A DNA stretch of 64,000 nt from Spirochaeta lutea (GTDB lineage Bacteria > Spirochaetota > Spirochaetia > DSM-27196 > Salinispiraceae), in NCBI RefSeq assembly GCF_000758165.1, contig NZ_JNUP01000066.1, positions 81,235 to 145,234 of the forward strand, given 5' to 3'. The notes under the pieces were generated by a model. The model saw only the letters and a list, made by a program, of their open reading frames with translations, was not told the DNA's origin and did no database searches. How positions within the stretch are numbered: position 1 is the stretch's first letter; every line of letters starts with the position of its first letter. Of the stretch, positions 51,594-64,000 are shown piece by piece. The translations under genes and the position numbers were made by a program.

Positions 51594-53897
51594 TTATTCC
51601 CTGGGGTACTCCAACAGATCCAGGAATTCCTTCTCGGTCACTACCTGAACGCCGAGGTTTTGAGCCTTCTTCAGCTTGCTGCCGGCTTTTTCACCTGCCA
51701 GGAGGTGGGTAGTCTTTCCGCTAACATCAGAAACCACCGTACCCCCTCGTTTTTTCACCTCAGTCATGGCAAGGTCTCGGGGTTTGAACTGCTCGAAACT
51801 ACCGGTTACACACCAGCTTTGACCGTCAAAGATCTGGGGAAGGCGGCTATCCCGGGAATCCAGGCCATCCTCCGGGGATTGGCTGAATTGCAGCCCCGCC
51901 TCCCGAAGCCGGGCTACCAGGTTTCGTAGTCTCGGTTCGGAGAGGGCCTGGGTCAGTCGCTCAACGGTCCGTTCACCCAATCCCTTGATCTCTAACAAAG
52001 CATTGGAATCACCCCTATCAATGAGAGAAAAAAGATCATCGATGCTCCGGTACCCCTGGGTTATCAACAGTTCGGTGACCTTGGGGCCGACATCGGGAAG
52101 GCCGAGGGACGGTAATACTAGGCGGTAGGGCTGACCGAGGCTGCGCTCCACCCCTTGGCGGATGAGCTGTATCTTTTTTTCGCCGAAGCCCGGCAGATCC
52201 AGGAGGGTTTCATAGGGGATTTGATAGATATCGGGAATATCGTGAATGAGGCCTCGGCGCCAAAGCAGTTCGGCGGTTTCGGCACCGAGGTTTTCGATAT
52301 CCATTTGATCCCTGCCTAGAAAGAACACCAGCCGTCCGAGCTGGCGGTCCGGACAATCAAAGTTGGGGCAGAAATGGTGGGCGCCGTTTTTTACCAGGGG
52401 CGTGCTGCAGGTGGGACAGGCCTGGGGAATCTGCCAGACGGGGTGCTGGGACTCGCCCTTTTCCTCCACTGCTTCGATGGCGGGGATGACATCGCCCCGG
52501 CGGCTCACCCGGACCAGATCGCCCGGGGCCAGCTCCAGGGCGTTGATGTAGTCCTGGTTATGCAGGGTTACGTTCTGGATGGTGGACCCCCCGATTTCCA
52601 CCGCTTCGATCCGGGCCACGGGGGTGACCCGGCCGGTTCGGCCGATTTGTACGTCGATGGAGATAACCCGGGAGATTCCTTGGGGGCTTTCGAACTTATA
52701 GGCCATGGCCCACCGGGGGTGGTGGCCGGTGTAACCGAGGGTCTCCCGAAGCTGAAGGTCATCCACCTTCAAAACCAATCCGTCGATCTCATAATCCAGG
52801 GAACTTCGTTCCCGGGTTTCGGTTTGCAGATAGTGCTCCAATTGACGGATGAGGGTATGTTGACCAGCCTTGTTTTCCCTTGGCGTGCCCGGGGTAGAGT
52901 CGTTCCCCCCCCCTTCGTACCCTCCTGGATGTCCTCCGGTTTGATCTCGGGGCGGGGCGGGTTGCTGGGAGGAACTTGTCTCGGCGGATGCGCCGGCCTC
53001 CTCGGGGTATTCCGCTTCTTGTGGGGAAAGACCTACCGGATGAGGTCCTGGATTCATGGCGGAAAGAAGGGCGGTGCGCCGATTCACCGGGAACCCCAGC
53101 CGCTCGAGCAGGATAAGATTCATCCAGTGGCTTCGGCCGTGGTGTTGGTCTTGAAGGCTGATCGAAGCGGCCTCGGATCGGCCCAGGAGCTCCCAGGCAG
53201 CGGAGAGACCATCATCCTCAAAGAAGGCCTCATAGACAAATATTCTTAGGGGTATGGAGGCGACCTCCCGACTTTTGATCCGCCGCAGACTTCCCGCAGC
53301 AAGATTCCGGGGATTCGCATAGGGGGTCTCCATGGTCCGGTTTATTACCTCAAAATCCGACTTGGAAAGATACACTTCTCCCCTGACAGGACCGGTAAGA
53401 GCCAGGGGAAGGCGCAGAGGCACCTGGGAGATGGTACGGACATTGGCAGTAATATCATTACCTACCCGGCCGTTTCCCCGCGTGACCGCTCTGTCAAGAA
53501 TCCCATCCTTATAATAGAGAACCAGGCTGGCACCGTCGAGTTTCTCCTCAACAACGTAGCGGCCCGCCCCCTGGCCGGTCATTTTAGTGAGCCACCGCTC
53601 CAGTTCATCCAGACTGTAGGCCTTATCTAGAGAGAGGACGGGAATGCTATGCTCAACCTCCGGAAAGTCCGCCGAGAGGTCTGAACCAACCCGCTGGGTA
53701 GGAGAATCCGGCCGAACCGCCTGGGGATACCGGCGCTCCAGATCCTCCAGTCGGTTAGAAAGAGCATCATAGTCGGCATCGGATATCCGGGGTTTTGCAT
53801 CTACGTAGTAATAGCGTTGGTACTCGCTGAGGTGTTCAATAAGCTCGTTGATTTCATCCAGGATTTCCTGGGGTACGGGTGTATGATCCTTGCTCAT
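51594..53897 (-). CDS. ligA: NAD-dependent DNA ligase
   Basis: 767 residues, about 95 longer than E. coli LigA. Order: Ia domain with DAKPRISDADYDAL, adenylation domain with the active lysine K119 in EEKLDGAS, DYEIDGLVLKVDD and PRWAMAYKF, OB fold, zinc finger CPTCSTPLV...CPNFDCPDRQ, helix-hairpin-helix repeats, and a C-terminal BRCT domain (WCVTGSFEQFKPRDL). A Pro/Gly/Ser/Glu-rich insertion (about residues 280-350) interrupts the adenylation domain just before HTLIRQLEHYL, a place where other ligases have a short turn. The start lies 15 bp after the SPOR gene; TACACT seven bases upstream suggests an extra leaderless start. Confidence 0.95.
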   Translation of the reverse strand: MSKDHTPVPQEILDEINELIEHLSEYQRYYYVDAKPRISDADYDALSNRLEDLERRYPQAVRPDSPTQRVGSDLSADFPEVEHSIPVLSLDKAYSLDELERWLTKMTGQGAGRYVVEEKLDGASLVLYYKDGILDRAVTRGNGRVGNDITANVRTISQVPLRLPLALTGPVRGEVYLSKSDFEVINRTMETPYANPRNLAAGSLRRIKSREVASIPLRIFVYEAFFEDDGLSAAWELLGRSEAASISLQDQHHGRSHWMNLILLERLGFPVNRRTALLSAMNPGPHPVGLSPQEAEYPEEAGASAETSSSQQPAPPRDQTGGHPGGYEGGGNDSTPGTPRENKAGQHTLIRQLEHYLQTETRERSSLDYEIDGLVLKVDDLQLRETLGYTGHHPRWAMAYKFESPQGISRVISIDVQIGRTGRVTPVARIEAVEIGGSTIQNVTLHNQDYINALELAPGDLVRVSRRGDVIPAIEAVEEKGESQHPVWQIPQACPTCSTPLVKNGAHHFCPNFDCPDRQLGRLVFFLGRDQMDIENLGAETAELLWRRGLIHDIPDIYQIPYETLLDLPGFGEKKIQLIRQGVERSLGQPYRLVLPSLGLPDVGPKVTELLITQGYRSIDDLFSLIDRGDSNALLEIKGLGERTVERLTQALSEPRLRNLVARLREAGLQFSQSPEDGLDSRDSRLPQIFDGQSWCVTGSFEQFKPRDLAMTEVKKRGGTVVSDVSGKTTHLLAGEKAGSKLKKAQNLGVQVVTEKEFLDLLEYPRE

Positions 53898-53912: not shown

Positions 53913-56660
53913 CTATAAACCCTGGCGAATAAAGGCGTCCCGATACCCCCGGGCCCTGAACCAATAGAGGACGGTTCCTTTTTCATCCTCGGTTAAGGGA
54001 CCGACGTAGAGCCGGTAGAGCTGGCGTTCGCCGCTCTTAATCGGCTCCACAGCAATGGGATAGCCGGGGCTGATGGCCGATACGGCAGTCCGGGCGGATT
54101 CCGGATTAGAAAACGCACCCACCTGAAGGTAATACTGTTCCGGCTGCAGACGGGTCACGATAGGAAGCTGGGCTAGTATTGCCTCGGGACTTTCCTTTTC
54201 TGCCGGGAACTTACCGGGCTGGGTGCTCGGAGCCGAAGTGACCGACGGTCTGCTTGGTTCCGGGCTGCCATCAGGCTCGGTCTTGTCGTCAGGTTCAGGT
54301 CCGGCGGGAGTTCGGTCCTCTACGGGTTCAAGGAATACCAACAAATCATCCGCCGTCTGCAGTACCTGCTCACGATCGGTTCCTGTTTCCGGAGTCGACG
54401 GGGCTGTAGCCTGGGGCTCAGCCAACGCCGCTACCCTCGGATCCTGTTCCGGACCGGGTTGGGCGGGATCCAGGCGTTCCGGGGTTTCCGGGTCTGCAGG
54501 AAGAGCGACACGACCCTCTACATCCGAGGGCTCCTGAGCCTGGGCCATGAGAGGGGGCTCGGCCTGAAGATCTGCAGGTGACTGGTCCTTCGGAGGAACC
54601 GCAACCTGTTCTCCGGGTACTTCGGCCCCTGGTTTGGGGGGTGTACCCGGCTCGCTTAGTCCGGCAGCCACAGGGGTTTCCGGACCAGCCTGGCTGTACA
54701 GCCCGGTTTCAGGATCGCGGCGGCTGGGTTCCGCCAGGGTTGAATCAGCTTTGGGATCCTGGGCCGATGCGTACAACCCTGAATCGGGCTGACGGGGTTG
54801 AGGGGCGGCTAAATCTGCTGCCCCGGCCGATTCCGGACCGCTTTCTGCATAGAGTCCCGTCTCGGGAGTATCTTCCTCGGGGGGCTTAAACTCTGCAGGG
54901 ACCAAGGTAATAATGTACCGCCCTGCCTCGGGAGCCTGTTCCCTGGGAAGGGGGGCATCCGGTGTTTCAGGAGCAGCCACCTGGGGAGCTGGGACGGCGT
55001 CAGTTAAGCCCTGGCGAATTCCTCCGGGAGCGGACAGTCTCGGTGAAGGTTCCTCGGGCAGGGGTCGTTCGGCAGGCTGGGCTTGGGGTAGTCCCGCCAC
55101 CTCCGGGACTGCTTCTCCGGGGCTTGGGAGACGGGGAAAGAGATCGTCATAGGTTTCCGCTTCGGCGGCGAAAGAAGCCAGGGGCAATCCCGGGACCGTC
55201 AAATCCTGGGCCAAACCGGGTTGCAGGCGTCCGGGACTCACCTCAACCCGGGCAAAGTCTGTTTTCGGCTGGGGAACATCTGCCAGAGCCACGGGGCTTC
55301 CCTGGGGGGGAATCTGGCGAGCCAGAGACACCTCTCCCTCCTCGGCGCCCAGGGCTCCCAGAGATGATGGAGCTCCTCCGAAGCGCTGGAAATAATCTTC
55401 TAAGGCCTGGTCGGCCGGATTTCCGGCCATGGGTGAGGCATAAGGCTGGGTTTCTGGAGATTCTGAAGACTCAGGTCTCCGCGTTTCCCCTTGAGGAAGG
55501 GCCGTTTCCCGGCCCAGGGGGAGTCCTGCTACCAGAGAACCATCGGTGACCGGCGGTTCCTCGGGTGCTTCCACCCCCAGGGGAGAAGGTTCCTGAGGCC
55601 GGGCTAATATACTCGCGGTATTGACCGAGGGCGGGCCGAACTGATCCAAGGCTGAACGGATCCCCTGGGATGGGAGGGGCCGGACCTTGGCGGGAACCGG
55701 CCCGGGGGGCTTCCCCTGCTCGGAGGGTTCGGGTGTTCCGGATTCGGAAACACCCGGATCCGATGGGCCTGATTCCGGCGTCGGGGAAACGGGCGGCTCT
55801 ACATCCGGAGCCTGGGCAAGGGCGGGTTGATCGATTATAGGTTCGGCGGACTGCTCAGGAGCCTGGAGGGGTCCCGGCCCTTCCTCGGGTGTTTCTCGGT
55901 CCTGAACGGACTCAACCTCCGCAAGCAGGAGAGACTTGTCCACGGCAAGATCGAAGGGATCCTGGAGGGGCGTATCTCTGGGTACGGCGGGCTGATCCCC
56001 CGGGAAAGCCGCCTCGGAGGATTCGGCTGAGGTTGATTCGGGGCTTGTTTCTGAGGATGGGGCCGGTTCACCCGAGGGTCGGCCTTGAGCGACCTGCGAA
56101 TCGGGTCGGGCCGGATCGGTTTGGGAGGAGGGCTCTACGATCTGGGGTTGCGTCTCCCCGGGCTCTTGGCGGACCGGCTGCTCGGGAATTTCGACGGGTT
56201 CGGGGGAAACCACCACCTCGGGTACCGGCGAATCATCGAAGAGAAATGCATTGGGATCTCCCACCGAAGCAGCGGGATTCAGATCAGGATCGGTAGAAAA
56301 AGGAGCATCCTCGGCCACCCCAGGACTGGAATCCGACCGGCTGGCAACAGGTTCAGCCTGAACAACCGTGGGATACCGTCCTTCAACGCCGAGCTGTTGT
56401 GCTGCTTGGGAGGATAACAGCAGAAACAATCCTGGATCCCGGAGTCTGGAAGTCACCTCGACCCTGACAGTCTCACCGGTTAGGGGATTTGTAACATCAA
56501 CCAGGGTTCCCAGGGGAAAGGCGTTGGACGCCGCATACAGCCCCTGGGCTCCAAAATCGGAACTACCGCTCTGGAGGGCATTTCCGGTCCAGAGTTGCTG
56601 GGGAAAAATCGCCCCAATACAATAGAGTAGCAGAATTAGTAAACCCAAAAATCGCTTCAT
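53913..56660 (-). CDS. RlpA/SPOR-type envelope protein with very long Pro/Glu-rich linker
   Basis: 915 residues from ATG 56660, with GGAGG 11 bases upstream. A signal peptide (MKRFLGLLILLLYCIGAIFP) is followed by an RlpA-like double-psi beta barrel (ASNAFPLGTLVDVTNPLTG...VEVTSRL). About 700 residues of low-complexity Pro/Glu/Ser/Ala sequence come next, then a C-terminal SPOR domain (QYYLQVGAFSNPESARTAV...YRLYVGPL). RlpA proteins are septal lytic transglycosylases or peptidoglycan binders; the barrel here lacks obvious catalytic residues, so a structural role is likely. The linker contains a repeated element, ETGLYAESGPE / DSGLYASAQDP / ETGLYSQAGPE, near residues 610-690. Confidence 0.85.
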   Translation of the reverse strand: MKRFLGLLILLLYCIGAIFPQQLWTGNALQSGSSDFGAQGLYAASNAFPLGTLVDVTNPLTGETVRVEVTSRLRDPGLFLLLSSQAAQQLGVEGRYPTVVQAEPVASRSDSSPGVAEDAPFSTDPDLNPAASVGDPNAFLFDDSPVPEVVVSPEPVEIPEQPVRQEPGETQPQIVEPSSQTDPARPDSQVAQGRPSGEPAPSSETSPESTSAESSEAAFPGDQPAVPRDTPLQDPFDLAVDKSLLLAEVESVQDRETPEEGPGPLQAPEQSAEPIIDQPALAQAPDVEPPVSPTPESGPSDPGVSESGTPEPSEQGKPPGPVPAKVRPLPSQGIRSALDQFGPPSVNTASILARPQEPSPLGVEAPEEPPVTDGSLVAGLPLGRETALPQGETRRPESSESPETQPYASPMAGNPADQALEDYFQRFGGAPSSLGALGAEEGEVSLARQIPPQGSPVALADVPQPKTDFARVEVSPGRLQPGLAQDLTVPGLPLASFAAEAETYDDLFPRLPSPGEAVPEVAGLPQAQPAERPLPEEPSPRLSAPGGIRQGLTDAVPAPQVAAPETPDAPLPREQAPEAGRYIITLVPAEFKPPEEDTPETGLYAESGPESAGAADLAAPQPRQPDSGLYASAQDPKADSTLAEPSRRDPETGLYSQAGPETPVAAGLSEPGTPPKPGAEVPGEQVAVPPKDQSPADLQAEPPLMAQAQEPSDVEGRVALPADPETPERLDPAQPGPEQDPRVAALAEPQATAPSTPETGTDREQVLQTADDLLVFLEPVEDRTPAGPEPDDKTEPDGSPEPSRPSVTSAPSTQPGKFPAEKESPEAILAQLPIVTRLQPEQYYLQVGAFSNPESARTAVSAISPGYPIAVEPIKSGERQLYRLYVGPLTEDEKGTVLYWFRARGYRDAFIRQGL

Positions 56661-56702
56661 AACGTTCCAGTCCTCCACTATCAGGTTCGGCACCTTTCCT
56701 AT

Positions 56703-57304: not shown

Positions 57305-58657
57305 ATGGATCAAGACCACTCAACCCATATACAAGATAATCAGCTACCCGTTTCCGGGGATCAACTATACCAGCCGGTACGCAGCACCATTTCCCTGCTC
57401 GACCTGGTTGCCGTCCTGATGAAGCAGAAATTGCTCATTGCCGGTGTTACCCTAGGTGCGATAATCCTGCTGCTGGCAATCAATCTCCTGGCAAAATTCC
57501 TCCCGGCGGAAAATCCCCTTAACCTGGTACCCGACACATTTACCAGCGAGGTTCAGATCTATTTGACCGCAAAGAATAGCTCCGGTTCATTAAGCAACCT
57601 GCTATCCAGCTCCAGCGACAGCGGACTTGCAGGAATTGCCAGCCTTGCGGGGCTCACCGGGGGGGGCGTATCACCCGAAGCAGCCCTGGCGCAGGAACTC
57701 TTGAAAAGCAGACCCCTGCTTGATTCGGTAGCTGAGGATCTTGATCTGTATGAGCGTCTGAACCTGGATGAGAACCCCAAGACAGCTGCCAGAGAGTTCC
57801 TCTCCGATAACATGACTGTGGAGTATAAGAGCGACTCCGGCATTTTTTCCATTACCTTTGAGGATACGGACCGGGAGTTCACCAAAGAAATAATTGATAC
57901 GGTGGTAGTTCATCTGGAACGGTTCTACCGCTCAATAAACCAGGAGCGGAACAACCAAAACCTGGCCTTCGTGGAAGAGCGGGTGGAGGAATTTGCCCGG
58001 AATAAGGACCTTGCCCGGCAGCGGTTAAAGACGTTTCAGGAAAAGAACCAGCTCTTCGTACCCCTGGGTACGGCCGCCTCGGCTGCCGGGGCTGCTCAGT
58101 CCTTTCAGGCACCCCAGCTGATCGCCGAGTACACAGCCATGATTGTAACGAAACAGCTGGAGATTCAGGGGCTTCTGGAATACCTTTCCGAGGATGCAGC
58201 CCAGGTTCGGCGTCTACGCAATGAAATCACCCTACTCCAGAATGCCATACGGGAGCTGCGGTACGGAGATAGTGAAAACCTGCCCATCGATACCATTCCC
58301 GAAAGCCAGATCAATCAGGTGCTCTTGGAATACCAGGACCTCGCTAGAGAGCTCCAGCTCCAGGAATCCCTCTACAGCCAGTTCCTGCTCCAAGCAGAAT
58401 CCATCCGGATTCAAAACGCCGATAAAACAAGCACATTCCAGGTAATCGGCCCTGCCGAGGTGCCAGAGAAAAAATCTGCCCCGTCCCGGGCGATGATCAT
58501 GGTGGTCGGTACAGCCGGCGCCTTCTTCCTCGCAGTGTTTCTGGCGTTCTTCCGCGAATATCTGCAGCGGGTAAAACAGGATCCTGAGGAGGGTAAAAAG
58601 CTGCAGGCAATTAAGGAATCGGCCCGGCTCTTCCCCAAAAAAGGAGCCCAAGAGTAA
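57305..58657 (+). CDS. Wzz-type polysaccharide chain-length/co-polymerase protein
   Basis: 450 residues from ATG 57305 with GGAG upstream. Membrane helices near the N-terminus (LLIAGVTLGAIILLLAINLL) and C-terminus (AMIMVVGTAGAFFLAVFLAF) flank a large periplasmic region with a long coiled coil (about 200-350), the Wzz/PCP fold, and the Pro-rich segment before TM2 (GPAEVPEKKSAPSRA). No tyrosine kinase domain follows, so it is a Wzz/PCP-1 or split PCP-2 type. First gene of the surface polysaccharide operon. Confidence 0.9.
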   Translation: MDQDHSTHIQDNQLPVSGDQLYQPVRSTISLLDLVAVLMKQKLLIAGVTLGAIILLLAINLLAKFLPAENPLNLVPDTFTSEVQIYLTAKNSSGSLSNLLSSSSDSGLAGIASLAGLTGGGVSPEAALAQELLKSRPLLDSVAEDLDLYERLNLDENPKTAAREFLSDNMTVEYKSDSGIFSITFEDTDREFTKEIIDTVVVHLERFYRSINQERNNQNLAFVEERVEEFARNKDLARQRLKTFQEKNQLFVPLGTAASAAGAAQSFQAPQLIAEYTAMIVTKQLEIQGLLEYLSEDAAQVRRLRNEITLLQNAIRELRYGDSENLPIDTIPESQINQVLLEYQDLARELQLQESLYSQFLLQAESIRIQNADKTSTFQVIGPAEVPEKKSAPSRAMIMVVGTAGAFFLAVFLAFFREYLQRVKQDPEEGKKLQAIKESARLFPKKGAQE

Positions 58658-58659
58658 CC

Positions 58660-59217
58660 ATGCCGCTGTTCGTGTGCCAGGTCAAAACAGGGGATGAAAA
58701 AAAGGTGATTCAATACCTCCAGAACCGGGGGGTGGTGTCCCCGAATGTGAAATTCCATACTCCGGAACGCGAGCTCTCCATCCGTAGGGCTGGCAGGGTA
58801 CGGAAGGAGCGATCCCTGCTCTTCCCTAGTTACCTATTCGTTGAAACAGAAACAGTTGAGCCGGAGATGGTTCTCGCCCTGCGAAAAATTCCGGGATTCT
58901 ACCGGTTTTTGCCGGATAACCAGGCTCCCCAGGCCCTATCTGCCGCCGAACGGGATTTGCTGCGCCACCTCATTCATGGCGGCAGGGTGCTGGGACAATC
59001 TAAGGTCATTTTTCGTGAGCAGGGCCGGATCCAGGTACTCTCCGGCCCGTTGCAAGGTCTGGAGGGATGCATAGTGAAGGTTAACCGCCGTAAACAGCGG
59101 ATACGAATCCGTCTGGATTTGTACCAGAACAGTCATCTGATTGATCTAGGGTTCGAGGAAGCAGCCCCCAGCCAGGAAACCGACGGGCCCCCGGCTGAAG
59201 GAGTAGAATCCCGATGA
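58660..59217 (+). CDS. NusG paralogue (RfaH/LoaP-like antiterminator)
   Basis: 185 residues. The N-terminal NGN domain begins LFVCQVKTGDEKKVIQYLQ and includes ERSLLFPSYLFVET; the C-terminal KOW domain is GRIQVLSGPLQGLEGCIVKVNRRKQRIRIRLDL. It lacks several core NusG features and is encoded two bases after wzz with AAAGGAG upstream, the usual position of specialised NusG paralogues (RfaH, LoaP, UpxY) that promote full-length transcription of long polysaccharide or antibiotic operons. It therefore probably regulates the operon it is in. The last 20 residues are disordered. Confidence 0.88.
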   Translation: MPLFVCQVKTGDEKKVIQYLQNRGVVSPNVKFHTPERELSIRRAGRVRKERSLLFPSYLFVETETVEPEMVLALRKIPGFYRFLPDNQAPQALSAAERDLLRHLIHGGRVLGQSKVIFREQGRIQVLSGPLQGLEGCIVKVNRRKQRIRIRLDLYQNSHLIDLGFEEAAPSQETDGPPAEGVESR

Positions 59218-60686
59218 GTATCTATATTATTGGTGCAGGCTTCGCCGGCCGAACCATTGCCAAGGAAATTCTTGCCAAGGGAATCTACGGACCCATTTCC
59301 GCATTCTTGGACGATGATCCCGGAAAAATCGGAACCCACATCGAACAGGCTCCGGTCCTCGGACCCGTTGACGACGTTCTGGATATACTGAGTCTCTCGG
59401 CTAAGGATGAGGCCCTTATAGCCATGCCTTCGGCTCCACGAGAGCGGATCCGGGAGATTTTCGCCCACCTCAAACGGGCAGGCTTCCCCCGGATCAGAAT
59501 TCTGCCGGATGTGGGGCAAATAATTGAGGGAGAGGCTCATCTCGTCCAAACCCGGGAGCTTGATCTGCAAGACCTTTTGGGGCGCAAGCCCCTGAGAATC
59601 GGACTGAAACAGAGTCTGGGTTACCTGAAGGGTAAGCGGGTTCTTATCAGCGGCGCAGGAGGGAGCATTGGCAGCGAGATTGCCCGGCAGTTGCTCCACG
59701 GCGGAGCCGAGCGTCTCTATCTCCTGGGTCATGGTGAAAACAGTATCTATGAGATCGACCGGGAACTTCGCTTACTGCAACAAGAGGGTGTGGGAGAAGA
59801 GGCCACCATCGTTCCGGTAATCGGTGAACTCCAGGATCCAGATTTTACCAACTTCATCATGGAACGGCTCCGGGCCGATGTGGTCTTTCACGCAGCCGCC
59901 TACAAACATGTACCCATGATGGAAGAAAATCCTGTGAATGCCATTAAAAATAACGTTTTCGGCACCCTGAACCTCCTACGGGCCAGCCGGGTTCACGGGG
60001 TCAAACGGTTTGTACTTATTTCCACCGATAAGGCGGTAAATCCCCGTAGTATATACGGTGCGAGCAAGAAAATTGCCGAGGCCATAGTTCTGTCCGAGGG
60101 GCAGAAAACCCAGGCGGATTTTCGTTCCATGGTCGTCCGGTTCGGCAATGTCTTAGGCTCCCGGGGAAGCATCATCCCCCTCTTTCGGGAACAAATCCGT
60201 ACCGGGGGCCCGGTAACCATAACCCACCCCGAGGTCAGCAGGTTTTTTATGACCATTCCCGAGGCGGTATCCTTGGTGCTCAAGGCGGGCGGGGTTGGGA
60301 AAAACTCTGGACTGTACCTCCTAGATATGGGTGAACCGGTTTTTATTCGGGACATCGCCGAACAGCTCATCCGGTTCCACGGCTTCGAACCTCACCAGGA
60401 CATCCCCATTCGAGTCATCGGTCTCCGGAAGGGTGAGAAACTTACCGAAACCCTCACCGAGGATTTTGAGCACGCCCGTACCACAGAGTTTCCCAAAATT
60501 CTGGAGGTTCAAAACTCCCTTGATTGGACAGGGAAGGGTCTGGCCGATTTCCTTGAACAGCTCTACCCTGTTTGTTACCGGAGTTCACAGCAGCCTGAAA
60601 AGTACCGGGACAGAAAGCTGCTGCGCCGCATACTCGCGTCCCGGTTACCCGACCTTCCGGAGAATACCGATGAACCCCAGTTCTGA
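59214..60686 (+). CDS. CapD/FlaA1-like nucleotide-sugar 4,6-dehydratase, soluble form
   Basis: 490 residues. An N-terminal Rossmann-like domain (MSIYIIGAGFAGRTIAKEIL; CoA- or ligand-binding domain type) is followed by an extended SDR dehydratase domain with LISGAGGSIGSEIARQL, HAAAYKHVPMMEENPVNA and the catalytic STDKAVNPRSIYGASKK. Well-studied relatives (WbpM, PglF) have four membrane helices at the N-terminus, which are missing here. The product is likely a UDP-4-keto-6-deoxy-HexNAc used by the aminotransferase encoded next. The start overlaps the NusG paralogue by four bases. Confidence 0.9.
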   Translation: MSIYIIGAGFAGRTIAKEILAKGIYGPISAFLDDDPGKIGTHIEQAPVLGPVDDVLDILSLSAKDEALIAMPSAPRERIREIFAHLKRAGFPRIRILPDVGQIIEGEAHLVQTRELDLQDLLGRKPLRIGLKQSLGYLKGKRVLISGAGGSIGSEIARQLLHGGAERLYLLGHGENSIYEIDRELRLLQQEGVGEEATIVPVIGELQDPDFTNFIMERLRADVVFHAAAYKHVPMMEENPVNAIKNNVFGTLNLLRASRVHGVKRFVLISTDKAVNPRSIYGASKKIAEAIVLSEGQKTQADFRSMVVRFGNVLGSRGSIIPLFREQIRTGGPVTITHPEVSRFFMTIPEAVSLVLKAGGVGKNSGLYLLDMGEPVFIRDIAEQLIRFHGFEPHQDIPIRVIGLRKGEKLTETLTEDFEHARTTEFPKILEVQNSLDWTGKGLADFLEQLYPVCYRSSQQPEKYRDRKLLRRILASRLPDLPENTDEPQF

Positions 60687-61941
60687 TTCCACATCTACAA
60701 CCATCCCCTTCGCAAAACCTAGCCTTGGCAGGGAAGAAGAAGAGGCAGTTATCCAGGTGATGAGAAGCGGCTGGCTCACCTCGGGAGAGCAATGCCGGCT
60801 GTTTGAACAGGAATTCTCCCGGTTTCTTGAGAACAACCCTGGGGAAACCCAGTCTACTGCTCCCCTCCATACCCTGAGTGTAAACTCAGCAACGGCGGGA
60901 CTGCATCTCGCCATGGATGTTTTGGGGGTTCGGCCGGGAGATCGGGTTGCCATGAGCCCCTACACCTTTGTTGCCACCGCAGAGGTGGTACGGTACATGG
61001 GCGGCATTCCAGTATTCGTTGATATTGAGCCGGGAACCTTCCATTTGGATCCGGCTGCCCTGGCAGAAGCCCTGGATTATTGGGAGCGCCAGGGCAGTCC
61101 CATCCGCGGGGTGATTGCGGTACACATTAGCGGTTGCAGTTGGCGCATGGCTGAGTTAGCCGGGCTCTGTAGTAGTCGGGGTATCTGGTTGGTGGAGGAC
61201 GCTGCCCATAGCTTCCCCTCACGAACCTCGGCAGGCTTCCATGGAACCCTGGGGGATATTGGTGTGTTTTCCTTCTACGCCAATAAAACCATCACCACCG
61301 GCGAGGGGGGAATGGTAGTAACCCGGAATGCGACCTGGGCGGAATCAATGAAACGTAAACGCCTCCATGGTATCAGCCGAGAGGTTTGGAACCGCTACCG
61401 GGATGCCGGAGCATCCTGGCAGTATGAGGTCACCGACCTTGGGTATAAGTACAACCTAACCGATTTAGCCGCCGCCATGGGGAGACAGCAGCTGCTAAAG
61501 GCTCAGGGCTTCCTCCAGGCTAGACGGGCAATCGCCCGGGATTACACCCGGGACTTTCTCGGGTGGGATGGCATTCAAATCCCCCCGGCAGGGGATCCGG
61601 ATTCCCCAGGGGCGCCAAAGCCCCTCGAATCTCTCGCTGAGCTTCCCGCTTTCACCGGAGCGGGTCACGCCTGGCATCTGTACATCCTCCAGTTTCCGAA
61701 TTCGACCATTCGGGACAGGGTTCACCGTGGGTTGGCTGCGGTCGGAATCGGGACGAGCATGCATTTTATTCCCCTGCACCGGATGCCCTACTACCGTGAA
61801 CTCGGCTGGCAGGAGGGGGCGTTTCCCCGGGCGGAGTACAGCGCGGATCGTGGATTGAGTATTCCGATATACCCCGACCTTCCTCCGGAATCCCGTAACC
61901 GTGTTGTTGATGAAATCAAAAAAATCTTTGATACTCTGTGA
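60670..61941 (+). CDS. DegT/DnrJ/EryC1-family sugar aminotransferase
   Basis: 423 residues from ATG 60670, with GGAG eight bases upstream and 17 bp inside the dehydratase gene. The PLP fold is clear: FAKPSLGREEEEAVIQVMRSGWLTSGE at the start (conserved start motif), SATAGLHLAMDVLG, VEDAAHSFPS with the PLP Asp, the lysine in FYANKTITTGEGGM, and HLYILQFP. It should aminate the 4-keto sugar made by the upstream enzyme (PglE/PseC/WbpE group). A short disordered loop (PPAGDPDSPGAPK) occurs around residue 305. Confidence 0.92.
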   Translation: MNPSSDSTSTTIPFAKPSLGREEEEAVIQVMRSGWLTSGEQCRLFEQEFSRFLENNPGETQSTAPLHTLSVNSATAGLHLAMDVLGVRPGDRVAMSPYTFVATAEVVRYMGGIPVFVDIEPGTFHLDPAALAEALDYWERQGSPIRGVIAVHISGCSWRMAELAGLCSSRGIWLVEDAAHSFPSRTSAGFHGTLGDIGVFSFYANKTITTGEGGMVVTRNATWAESMKRKRLHGISREVWNRYRDAGASWQYEVTDLGYKYNLTDLAAAMGRQQLLKAQGFLQARRAIARDYTRDFLGWDGIQIPPAGDPDSPGAPKPLESLAELPAFTGAGHAWHLYILQFPNSTIRDRVHRGLAAVGIGTSMHFIPLHRMPYYRELGWQEGAFPRAEYSADRGLSIPIYPDLPPESRNRVVDEIKKIFDTL

Positions 61942-61943
61942 TA

Positions 61944-64000
61944 ATGGCAAAGATTCGATCTGTCAGGTCAACCCTAACCAGCCGCAGCAGGTTTATCACC
62001 GATCTCCCTGGAGAGAATGCCTTGGCCTGCCGGTTTCTCAGATCCGAGAAGGCCCGGGCGAAGATCCTGCGTATCCACATTCCCGAGGAGTCCCGGCTTA
62101 AGGAAGTGCGCGGCGGGGTTTTGCTCCCCGGTGATCTACCCGGTGCCCGAGACCTGGAGTTTTTTGGCAATTCTCTCCCCCTCTTTGCTGAGGATGAGGT
62201 TTTTTTCCAGGGGCAGCCCATTGGATTGGTCTACGCCCCCTCCCAGGCAGACGTCGATGCCATCCTTCAGGAAATTCAGGTCATATATGAGGAACTCCCG
62301 GGAGAGTTCATCCCCAAGGATTCTACTGTTTTTACCACCCGGCGGTTCTCATGGTTTGAACCCACCTGGGCAGAGCCAGGGCCTGCTGCCGCCAATCCCC
62401 GACTGCCCGATCTCCAAGGGGAAAATCCTTCCGAGGACGACTCACCGGAGCAGCCCGGAACCAACACGGCGGAGGATGGTTCGGATACAGAAATTCTCCC
62501 GGAGGTGCAGTGGCTGGATTCCGGGTCGGAAGAAGGGATGGATGATTCGAATTCCGATAACCCAGGAGATTCCCTTGAGTCCGAGATTCAGGATACAAGC
62601 ATCCATGAGATTCATTCCCAACTAAACCTCCATTCCCAGTTTCAACCCGTGCGAGAAAGCCTCGGAGCATATTGTTATTTACACGATGGTATCTTGGTGG
62701 TAAGAACCCCGGCTATCTGGCCCCACCATCTTCAGCGCAGTATCACTCAAATCTGCAAACTCCAGCCGCGCCGGGTTGATGTACAACCGACCATTCCCGG
62801 AATGTACCACGACCGCCTCCTGATTGATTCTGAGATCGTTGCCCTCGGCGCCGCCCTTTGCACTATTCATACCGGCAACCCAGCACTCCTGGTTCTTGAC
62901 CCCGAGGAGGAGATGCTCACCGCCACGAAACAGGCGGTTATGACCTGCTCCCATAGCCTACGGGTGGATGCCGAAACAGGGTTGGATGAGGTGCGGATTA
63001 CCTACCGGATAAATATGGGTGCCTTCCCCCTCTTTACCCAGGAGATTCTCCGGCAGGTAGCAGTTTCAAGCCTCTACCGGTACCGCTGTCCCAAGGGGTT
63101 GGTGGAGGTGGAATTACACCGCACGAACCTCCAGCCCATGAGCATCTTCCACGGGTTTCTCAGCCCTCAGGCTCAAACCTGTACGGAAATTCAGATGAAT
63201 CGGGCGGCGGAGGTGCTAAACGTAGACCCCATGGAACTTCGGTTGGGGTTGCTTCTGCACCCCGGGGAGCAAAATCCCACAGGAGCGGAATTTCCTAACC
63301 CCGAAGAGGTGTTTACCATCCTGCCCCGCCTCGGGGAAATCTCCGATTTTTCCAGGAAATTTTCCGCCTTCGAGGTACTGAGAAAAAGCCGTAGCCGGCA
63401 GGAAAATACCCTGGGCAGGGGATTGTTACACCAGCTCCGGGGTATCGGCATGGCGCTGGGATTCCAGGGCAACGGGTTCACCCGGCCTACCGAACAGTAT
63501 TTTAAAACCCGTGTCAGGCTCCGCCTCGAAACCGACGGAACCATCAAGCTCTACGCCAGTTCCTCTCCCGGGTCCTCTTCCCTGAAGGCCCATTGGCGGG
63601 ATATGGTGCGGGAATTCTTCGATGTCCCCGAAGAATCCATCGAGCTTGTTCAATCCAATACCCTTGAGGTTCCCGATGCGGGGCCGTCCAGCGTATCCCG
63701 AAATATAACAATAATGCGGAAACTCATAGAACAGAGCTGCAAAACCCTCCAGCGCCAGCGCTTCCGGGAGCCCCTACCCCTGGAAATTGTAAAGACGTAC
63801 CGGCCTTCAACCCGGGGCAGCTGGGATGATGAGCAGTTTTCAGGGAATCCCTACTACACCACCAGCTGGGCAGGGGCTGCGGTGGAGGTTGGGGTTGATC
63901 CGGTAACCTACCAGCCGTCGGTAACCGGAGTCTGGGTAGTTGTCAACGCGGGGGGGATTCTCTATAACAGTCAGGCCCGGGCTCATATTGAGGGTAGTGT
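61944..64000 (+). CDS. Xanthine-dehydrogenase-like molybdoprotein, divergent, 3' end outside window
   Basis: Starts two bases after the aminotransferase stop and stays open to the window end (685 codons). Overall order follows molybdopterin subunits of the xanthine/aldehyde oxidase family: a small N-terminal domain (LPGARDLEFFGN...PIGLVYAPSQADVDAI), the first molybdopterin region (VRTPAIWPHHLQRSI), a segment IFHGFLSPQAQTCTEIQMNRAAEVLNVDPMELRL and EVGVDPVTYQPSVTGVWVVVNAG. Catalytic signatures are degenerate: the usual GGGFGGK loop is replaced by PGMYHDR and the RGFG motif by HGFL. An acidic, Ser/Asp/Glu-rich insertion of about 85 residues (140-230) splits the N-terminal part. Function unknown; a non-enzymatic or altered role is possible. 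Confidence 0.75.
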   Translation, partial: MAKIRSVRSTLTSRSRFITDLPGENALACRFLRSEKARAKILRIHIPEESRLKEVRGGVLLPGDLPGARDLEFFGNSLPLFAEDEVFFQGQPIGLVYAPSQADVDAILQEIQVIYEELPGEFIPKDSTVFTTRRFSWFEPTWAEPGPAAANPRLPDLQGENPSEDDSPEQPGTNTAEDGSDTEILPEVQWLDSGSEEGMDDSNSDNPGDSLESEIQDTSIHEIHSQLNLHSQFQPVRESLGAYCYLHDGILVVRTPAIWPHHLQRSITQICKLQPRRVDVQPTIPGMYHDRLLIDSEIVALGAALCTIHTGNPALLVLDPEEEMLTATKQAVMTCSHSLRVDAETGLDEVRITYRINMGAFPLFTQEILRQVAVSSLYRYRCPKGLVEVELHRTNLQPMSIFHGFLSPQAQTCTEIQMNRAAEVLNVDPMELRLGLLLHPGEQNPTGAEFPNPEEVFTILPRLGEISDFSRKFSAFEVLRKSRSRQENTLGRGLLHQLRGIGMALGFQGNGFTRPTEQYFKTRVRLRLETDGTIKLYASSSPGSSSLKAHWRDMVREFFDVPEESIELVQSNTLEVPDAGPSSVSRNITIMRKLIEQSCKTLQRQRFREPLPLEIVKTYRPSTRGSWDDEQFSGNPYYTTSWAGAAVEVGVDPVTYQPSVTGVWVVVNAGGILYNSQARAHIEGS

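Follow-up and report, generated by a model that had tools for sequence, protein, structure and literature searches.

The gene at the end of the analysed DNA (a stretch of 64,000 nucleotides of Spirochaeta lutea, contig NZ_JNUP01000066.1, positions 81,235 to 145,234; referred to as the window) and the two genes that follow it encode what is very probably, as judged from sequence comparison, an ancient xanthine dehydrogenase (XDH) paralogue specific to the Spirochaetia, in which the molybdenum cofactor (Moco) is no longer bound. The large subunit is referred to as XL, and its [2Fe-2S] and flavin partner subunits as FeS and FAD. Given the loss of the Moco site, the complex very probably has another job. 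The sequence-only reading of this DNA had suggested a repurposed molybdoprotein scaffold, a proposal supported by the rewriting of the Moco segments, the class-wide extent of the loss and low dN/dS. Features in the window are listed in Table 1.

Table 1. Features of the window that bear on XL, in order of position
Feature	Position	Strand	Remarks
NAD-dependent DNA ligase (ligA)	51594..53897	-	anchor common to Sphaerochaeta-like and Borreliaceae loci
SPOR-domain protein	53913..56693	-	PF05036 E 5.7e-8; divergent from operon
Wzz/GNVR polysaccharide chain-length protein	57305..58657	+	Pfam GNVR PF13807; not seen in conserved block
LoaP-class NusG paralogue (antiterminator)	58660..59217	+	NF033641 136.2 bits, cut-off 125; first gene of conserved block
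CapD/PglF-type nucleotide-sugar 4,6-dehydratase, XL operon	59214..60686	+	Pfam PF02719 E 7e-107
DegT/DnrJ/EryC1/StrS sugar aminotransferase, XL operon	60670..61941	+	Pfam PF01041 E 1e-90; adjoins XL in relatives
XL, XDH-type large subunit, apparently without Moco site	61944..64000	+	first 685 of 793 codons; rest beyond window
Acidic linker, predicted disordered, hammerhead domain to MoCoBD_1	62355..62594	+	model residues 138-217
GMYHDRL at GGGFGGK position	62799..62819	+	XL alignment
IFHGFL at ARGFG position	63144..63161	+	XL alignment
SSSLKA at GQGxxT position	63573..63590	+	XL alignment
AHIEG at GQxxG position	63981..63995	+	XL alignment

With its 3' part recovered from the same contig, beyond the window end to which its frame is open, XL encodes a protein of 793 aa without a stop before its end. 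The Pfam domains Ald_Xan_dh_C, MoCoBD_1 and MoCoBD_2 were all matched above their cut-offs, and an AlphaFold model (pTM 0.76) was aligned with xanthine oxidase 3eub over 677 residues (Z 40.8, rmsd 3.1). The model indicates that the whole XDH large-subunit fold is retained, and the molybdopterin-subunit fold markers that had been read from the window letters are confirmed by the Pfam domains and this structural match. XL is the sole XDH-family gene detected in the S. lutea genome. The 85-residue acidic insertion noted earlier is real and has no general meaning for the XL family: residues 138-217 hold 23 D/E against 1 K/R and have pLDDT below 50 in the model, the stretch around the insertion is 106 residues long in S. 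lutea against a family median of 37, and long inserts of unrelated sequence occur at this site in a few further members. It is a lineage-specific linker, disordered by the model.

To score the Moco segments, 75 XL proteins were aligned with 20 canonical members, including E. coli XdhA and PaoC; the segments used are those in contact with Moco in the aldehyde oxidoreductase and XDH structures. Mean retention of canonically conserved columns in the 75 XL proteins was 29% in these segments versus 67% elsewhere (Mann-Whitney p 8e-7), and fell to 4% for the R of RGFG, 9% for the F of GGGF, 4% for the Q of GQG and 1% for the Q of the GQxxG segment. The contact segments GGGFGG, RGFG, GQG, ASR and GQxxG are not kept in XL in the family alignment, and neither GGGFGG nor RGFG occurs in any of the 75 XL genes. 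Many relatives carry GxxLDGK at the GGGFGGK position, and the residues at the lost motifs vary between lineages. Canonical XDHs of the same phylum have GGGFGG and RGFG, or a near variant. The earlier observation that GGGFGGK and RGFG are not conserved in the S. lutea gene holds, and the loss of catalytic motifs then proposed extends to Moco contact segments beyond these two; an ordinary XDH is ruled out by this rewriting. The C-terminal check that had been advised gave a divided answer: the catalytic Glu is present in S. lutea XL (GIGE), and the Moco contacts are rewritten. Across the family this Glu is kept in 34 of the 75 proteins and replaced in 41.

XL sequences form one clade against canonical sequences (branch support SH-aLRT 100), have intact frames in about 75 loci and share family-specific conserved residues (SDFxRK, RFRxPLPI and GPxxLSR). 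Pairwise dN/dS values of 0.05-0.14 indicate that XL is under selection, including in lineages with lost Fe-S cysteines, and neither frameshifts nor dN/dS near 1 were seen in close relatives. By these measures the clade is conserved across the class Spirochaetia under purifying selection, not decay. From a species-named collection the best 80 of 204 loci encoding relatives were kept, and all but one, a 'bacterium' MAG, have spirochaete or Treponema titles. Some matches beyond the class, among them those in Brachyspira-sized genomes, had XL-like E-values; the seven of these that were read proved to be canonical, with GGGFGG/GGAFGG and RGFG. A fused 959-aa form in Sphaerochaeta-like genomes is without GGGFGG, yet groups on the canonical side.

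A search for XDH-type FAD and Fe-S genes beside XL, as had been proposed, found both directly after it and outside the window: a 161-aa [2Fe-2S] subunit followed by a 283-aa FAD_binding_5 subunit (E 1.3e-32), with short overlaps. All eight Cys of the two [2Fe-2S] sets are present in the S. lutea FeS and in 65 of 75 family Fe-S subunits, which rules out a general loss of clusters. All Cys but one are lost from the FeS of closed genome G007 and of a Sphaerochaeta coccoides-sized genome, the first Cys set is lost from that of a T. pallidum-sized genome, and further lineages show partial losses. On this pattern, most species, though not all, may still be capable of redox chemistry. Before the CxxC of the Moco-proximal cluster, the Gln found in 7 of 7 canonical subunits is retained by 2 of 75 XL-type ones, most of the others having P (43) or L (12); the S. 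lutea FeS has P at this Moco-facing position. In the FAD subunit the glycine motifs are kept, and the Asp and the NASPxAD motif are changed. Of the two findings that were to speak against a repurposed protein, ordinary xdh partner genes and an intact active site, the first was made and the second was not.

Moco biosynthesis genes were compared with the occurrence of XL. Among 199 class genomes at least 90% complete, the XL profile was matched in 165 (canonical matches included), MoaC in 61 and MoeA in 55; in the order-level set MoaA, MoaC, MoaE and MoeA are absent together. XL loci were also read in thirteen genomes assembled in one or two contigs, for which profile matches gave neither MoaC nor MoeA. 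Two of the thirteen, the closed Sphaerochaeta-like genomes G178 and G202, also carry canonical XDH genes with GGGFGG and RGFG intact (L228:1101-3668, L231:1703-4279, L233:672-3194), which are, as far as their sequences go, orphan molybdoenzymes. With canonical-looking XDHs in two closed genomes of this kind, missing Moco genes alone are no proof of missing Moco. A third genome without MoaC and MoeA, G061 of the Treponema family, has a canonical-type XDH with GGSFGGK and RAYGG (L104:2034-4316), so that the class does contain orphan molybdoenzymes; closed genome G195, likewise without MoaC and MoeA, has a canonical XDH split into three frames and an intact XL (L234:2306-4295). S. lutea has its own Moco cluster (MoaA, MoaC, MobB/MobA, MoeA and a ThiF-type gene; L054:431-10644), which adjoins an MFS transporter gene and a molybdopterin oxidoreductase of the PF00384 type, and its Moco genes probably serve this oxidoreductase.

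XL starts two bases after the stop codon of the sugar aminotransferase gene (61939-61941), as had been noticed. The usual gene order in the class is LoaP - sugar dehydratase - DegT - XL - FeS - FAD, and the gene directly upstream of XL encodes DegT or the dehydratase in 66 of 75 loci, a number that rises to 68 with the window and one contig-end case. LoaP genes are often found beside polysaccharide or secondary-metabolite operons (PMC12691694). The two upstream sugar genes are safely assigned at the superfamily level only; the NCBIfam equivalog cut-offs were not reached for PseC (288.8 vs 423.5) or PseB (164.3 vs 407.75). A relative of the SPOR-domain protein occurs near XL in 52 family loci. 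Gene fusions between the XL set and the sugar genes were looked for and none was found, and Borreliaceae and Sphaerochaeta-like genomes have XL-FeS-FAD without an adjoining DegT or dehydratase. Of the surface-polysaccharide role suggested earlier, the linkage is real and conserved and the role itself is not supported: since XL-FeS-FAD persists without adjoining sugar genes in several lineages, a part in polysaccharide synthesis is possible, not required. In the Sphaerochaeta-like loci L098, L099 and L092, XL-FeS-FAD lies between ligA and dnaE-yggT-recG, and dnaE-yggT-recG also follows the FAD gene in genome G002 (L023).

Five Borreliaceae genomes have, beside ligA and after a divergent secreted gene, genes for proteins of ~620, 153-156 and 284-287 aa, followed by PTS enzyme I. 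These loci were missed by the order-level XL profile and were found through the ligA position and a broader profile; their products match XL (E 1e-6 to 2e-8), FeS (E 1e-21 to 1e-25) and FAD (E about 1e-26), respectively. With hhalign the large subunit gave prob 98.3 and E 1.8e-14 to the XL profile versus prob 4.1 to the canonical one, and a weak match (prob 8) to the smaller order-level alignment alone. A model of it reached Z 25 to the XDH/AOX fold from an input alignment that included XL rows, and is thus not independent evidence. The Borreliaceae FeS has lost the first Cys set and kept the second; the secreted protein sits like the SPOR neighbour and is without a Pfam SPOR match. By homology, gene order and published descriptions, the locus is identified as bb0554-bb0556, genes reported in oxidant-resistance screens as needed for this resistance (PMC5333916), recovered in a tick-survival screen (PMC6516651) and named xdhACB, a putative xanthine dehydrogenase (PMC10566445). 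This name, in its Moco-based reading, is not supported by the sequences. B. burgdorferi shares the three-gene set beside ligA, but the set is far more eroded there, with no Pfam match for the large subunit, no sugar genes, and one Fe-S Cys set and the FAD glycine motif lost. In T. pallidum, TPASS_0079 and TPASS_0081, annotated as xanthine dehydrogenase (PMC4403809), match the dehydratase - DegT - XL - FeS - FAD locus of a 1.14 Mb T. pallidum-sized genome (L085), in which, however, the Moco motifs and first Fe-S Cys set are lost and MoaC and MoeA are absent; in the literature collection searched, no paper came up under the locus names TP0078 and TP0080. On these matches, the XL complex is probably present in both the syphilis and the Lyme agents.

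An XDH-like hetero-complex of the XL, FeS and FAD proteins would be retained; electrons would, in most species, move between the flavin and the two [2Fe-2S] clusters, and the former Moco pocket might now be a docking or ligand site; in G007, S. coccoides-like and Borreliaceae genomes, where most cofactor sites are gone, the complex would be a scaffold or a one-cluster sensor. The oxidant phenotype of bb0554-0556, together with the conserved SPOR-domain and nucleotide-sugar neighbours, tentatively suggests envelope upkeep and oxidant resistance as the most likely role, the source of the phenotype being Borrelia, the most eroded family member. As an overall history, it is conceivable, at somewhat less than even chances, that molybdenum was lost once in the Spirochaetia ancestor, that an envelope-linked oxidant-defence complex was kept, which in the Lyme agent and some others later became a scaffold or Fe-S sensor, and that the XDH name is a misnomer in such spirochaetes.

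Also compatible with a Moco-free complex is a redox step in nucleotide-sugar biosynthesis, in which FAD and the Fe-S clusters exchange electrons with a dehydratase/aminotransferase intermediate for a surface or flagellar glycan. The sugar genes directly upstream in 68 of 75 loci, the start/stop overlaps or two-base gaps and the LoaP antiterminator in front argue for such a step, but Sphaerochaeta-like and Borreliaceae genomes have XL-FeS-FAD with none of these genes beside it, several lineages with the sugar genes in place (G007, T. pallidum-like) have lost Fe-S Cys, and no fusion of the two gene sets was found; such a step is considered rather unlikely. Improbable is a divergent, active molybdenum hydroxylase that holds Moco through other contacts and has taken up a different substrate, for which a nucleotide sugar is a candidate. 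Although S. lutea makes Moco and keeps the catalytic Glu, and the FAD glycine motifs and the two Fe-S clusters are mostly retained in the family, this enzyme would have to occur in thirteen XL genomes of one or two contigs without MoaC and MoeA and in the 41 of 75 proteins with Glu replaced, the Moco-side face of FeS has changed as well, and the S. lutea Moco genes, in a PF00384-type cluster with MobA/MobB, would be explained without XL.

The course of the loss could also be read differently. That the Moco motifs disappeared separately in many lineages would fit the differing residues at these positions, but all XL sequences are set apart together by a branch with support of 100, no member has the motifs, and the variety is explained by later drift of a released site, so that repeated loss is very improbable. 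That XL is a pseudogene or an annotation artefact, as lost catalytic motifs alone might suggest, has a negligible probability in view of the intact frames in about 75 loci, the low dN/dS and the conservation of family-specific residues.

The XL reading would correct the XDH annotation in T. pallidum and B. burgdorferi and would give the published oxidant-resistance and tick-survival locus a testable mechanism problem. Molybdenum hydroxylases of the XDH/aldehyde oxidoreductase type (PF01315, PF02738 and PF20256, with PF00941, PF00111 and PF01799) share with the XL complex the fold, the domain order, the Fe-S Cys, the three separate subunits in the large - FeS - FAD order of canonical spirochaete XDHs and, in about half of XL proteins, the catalytic Glu. 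The XL complex differs from them in that the Moco segments and the FeS Gln are lost, some FAD-side residues are changed and it occurs in genomes without MoaC and MoeA. The complex I subunit NuoG/NDUFS1 is a Moco-free member of the DMSO-reductase superfamily, to which a Moco-free XL would be a parallel within the XDH superfamily. A survey of molybdoproteins noted orphan members of the XO family in genomes without Moco synthesis and suggested Mo-independent forms (PMC6147048); it found no sequence feature for these orphans, whereas XL has one in the loss of the Moco segments. Moco-free XDH descendants, suspected from orphan genes (PMC6147048), would now be represented by a whole clade with a sequence signature, a T. 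pallidum-sized genome included.
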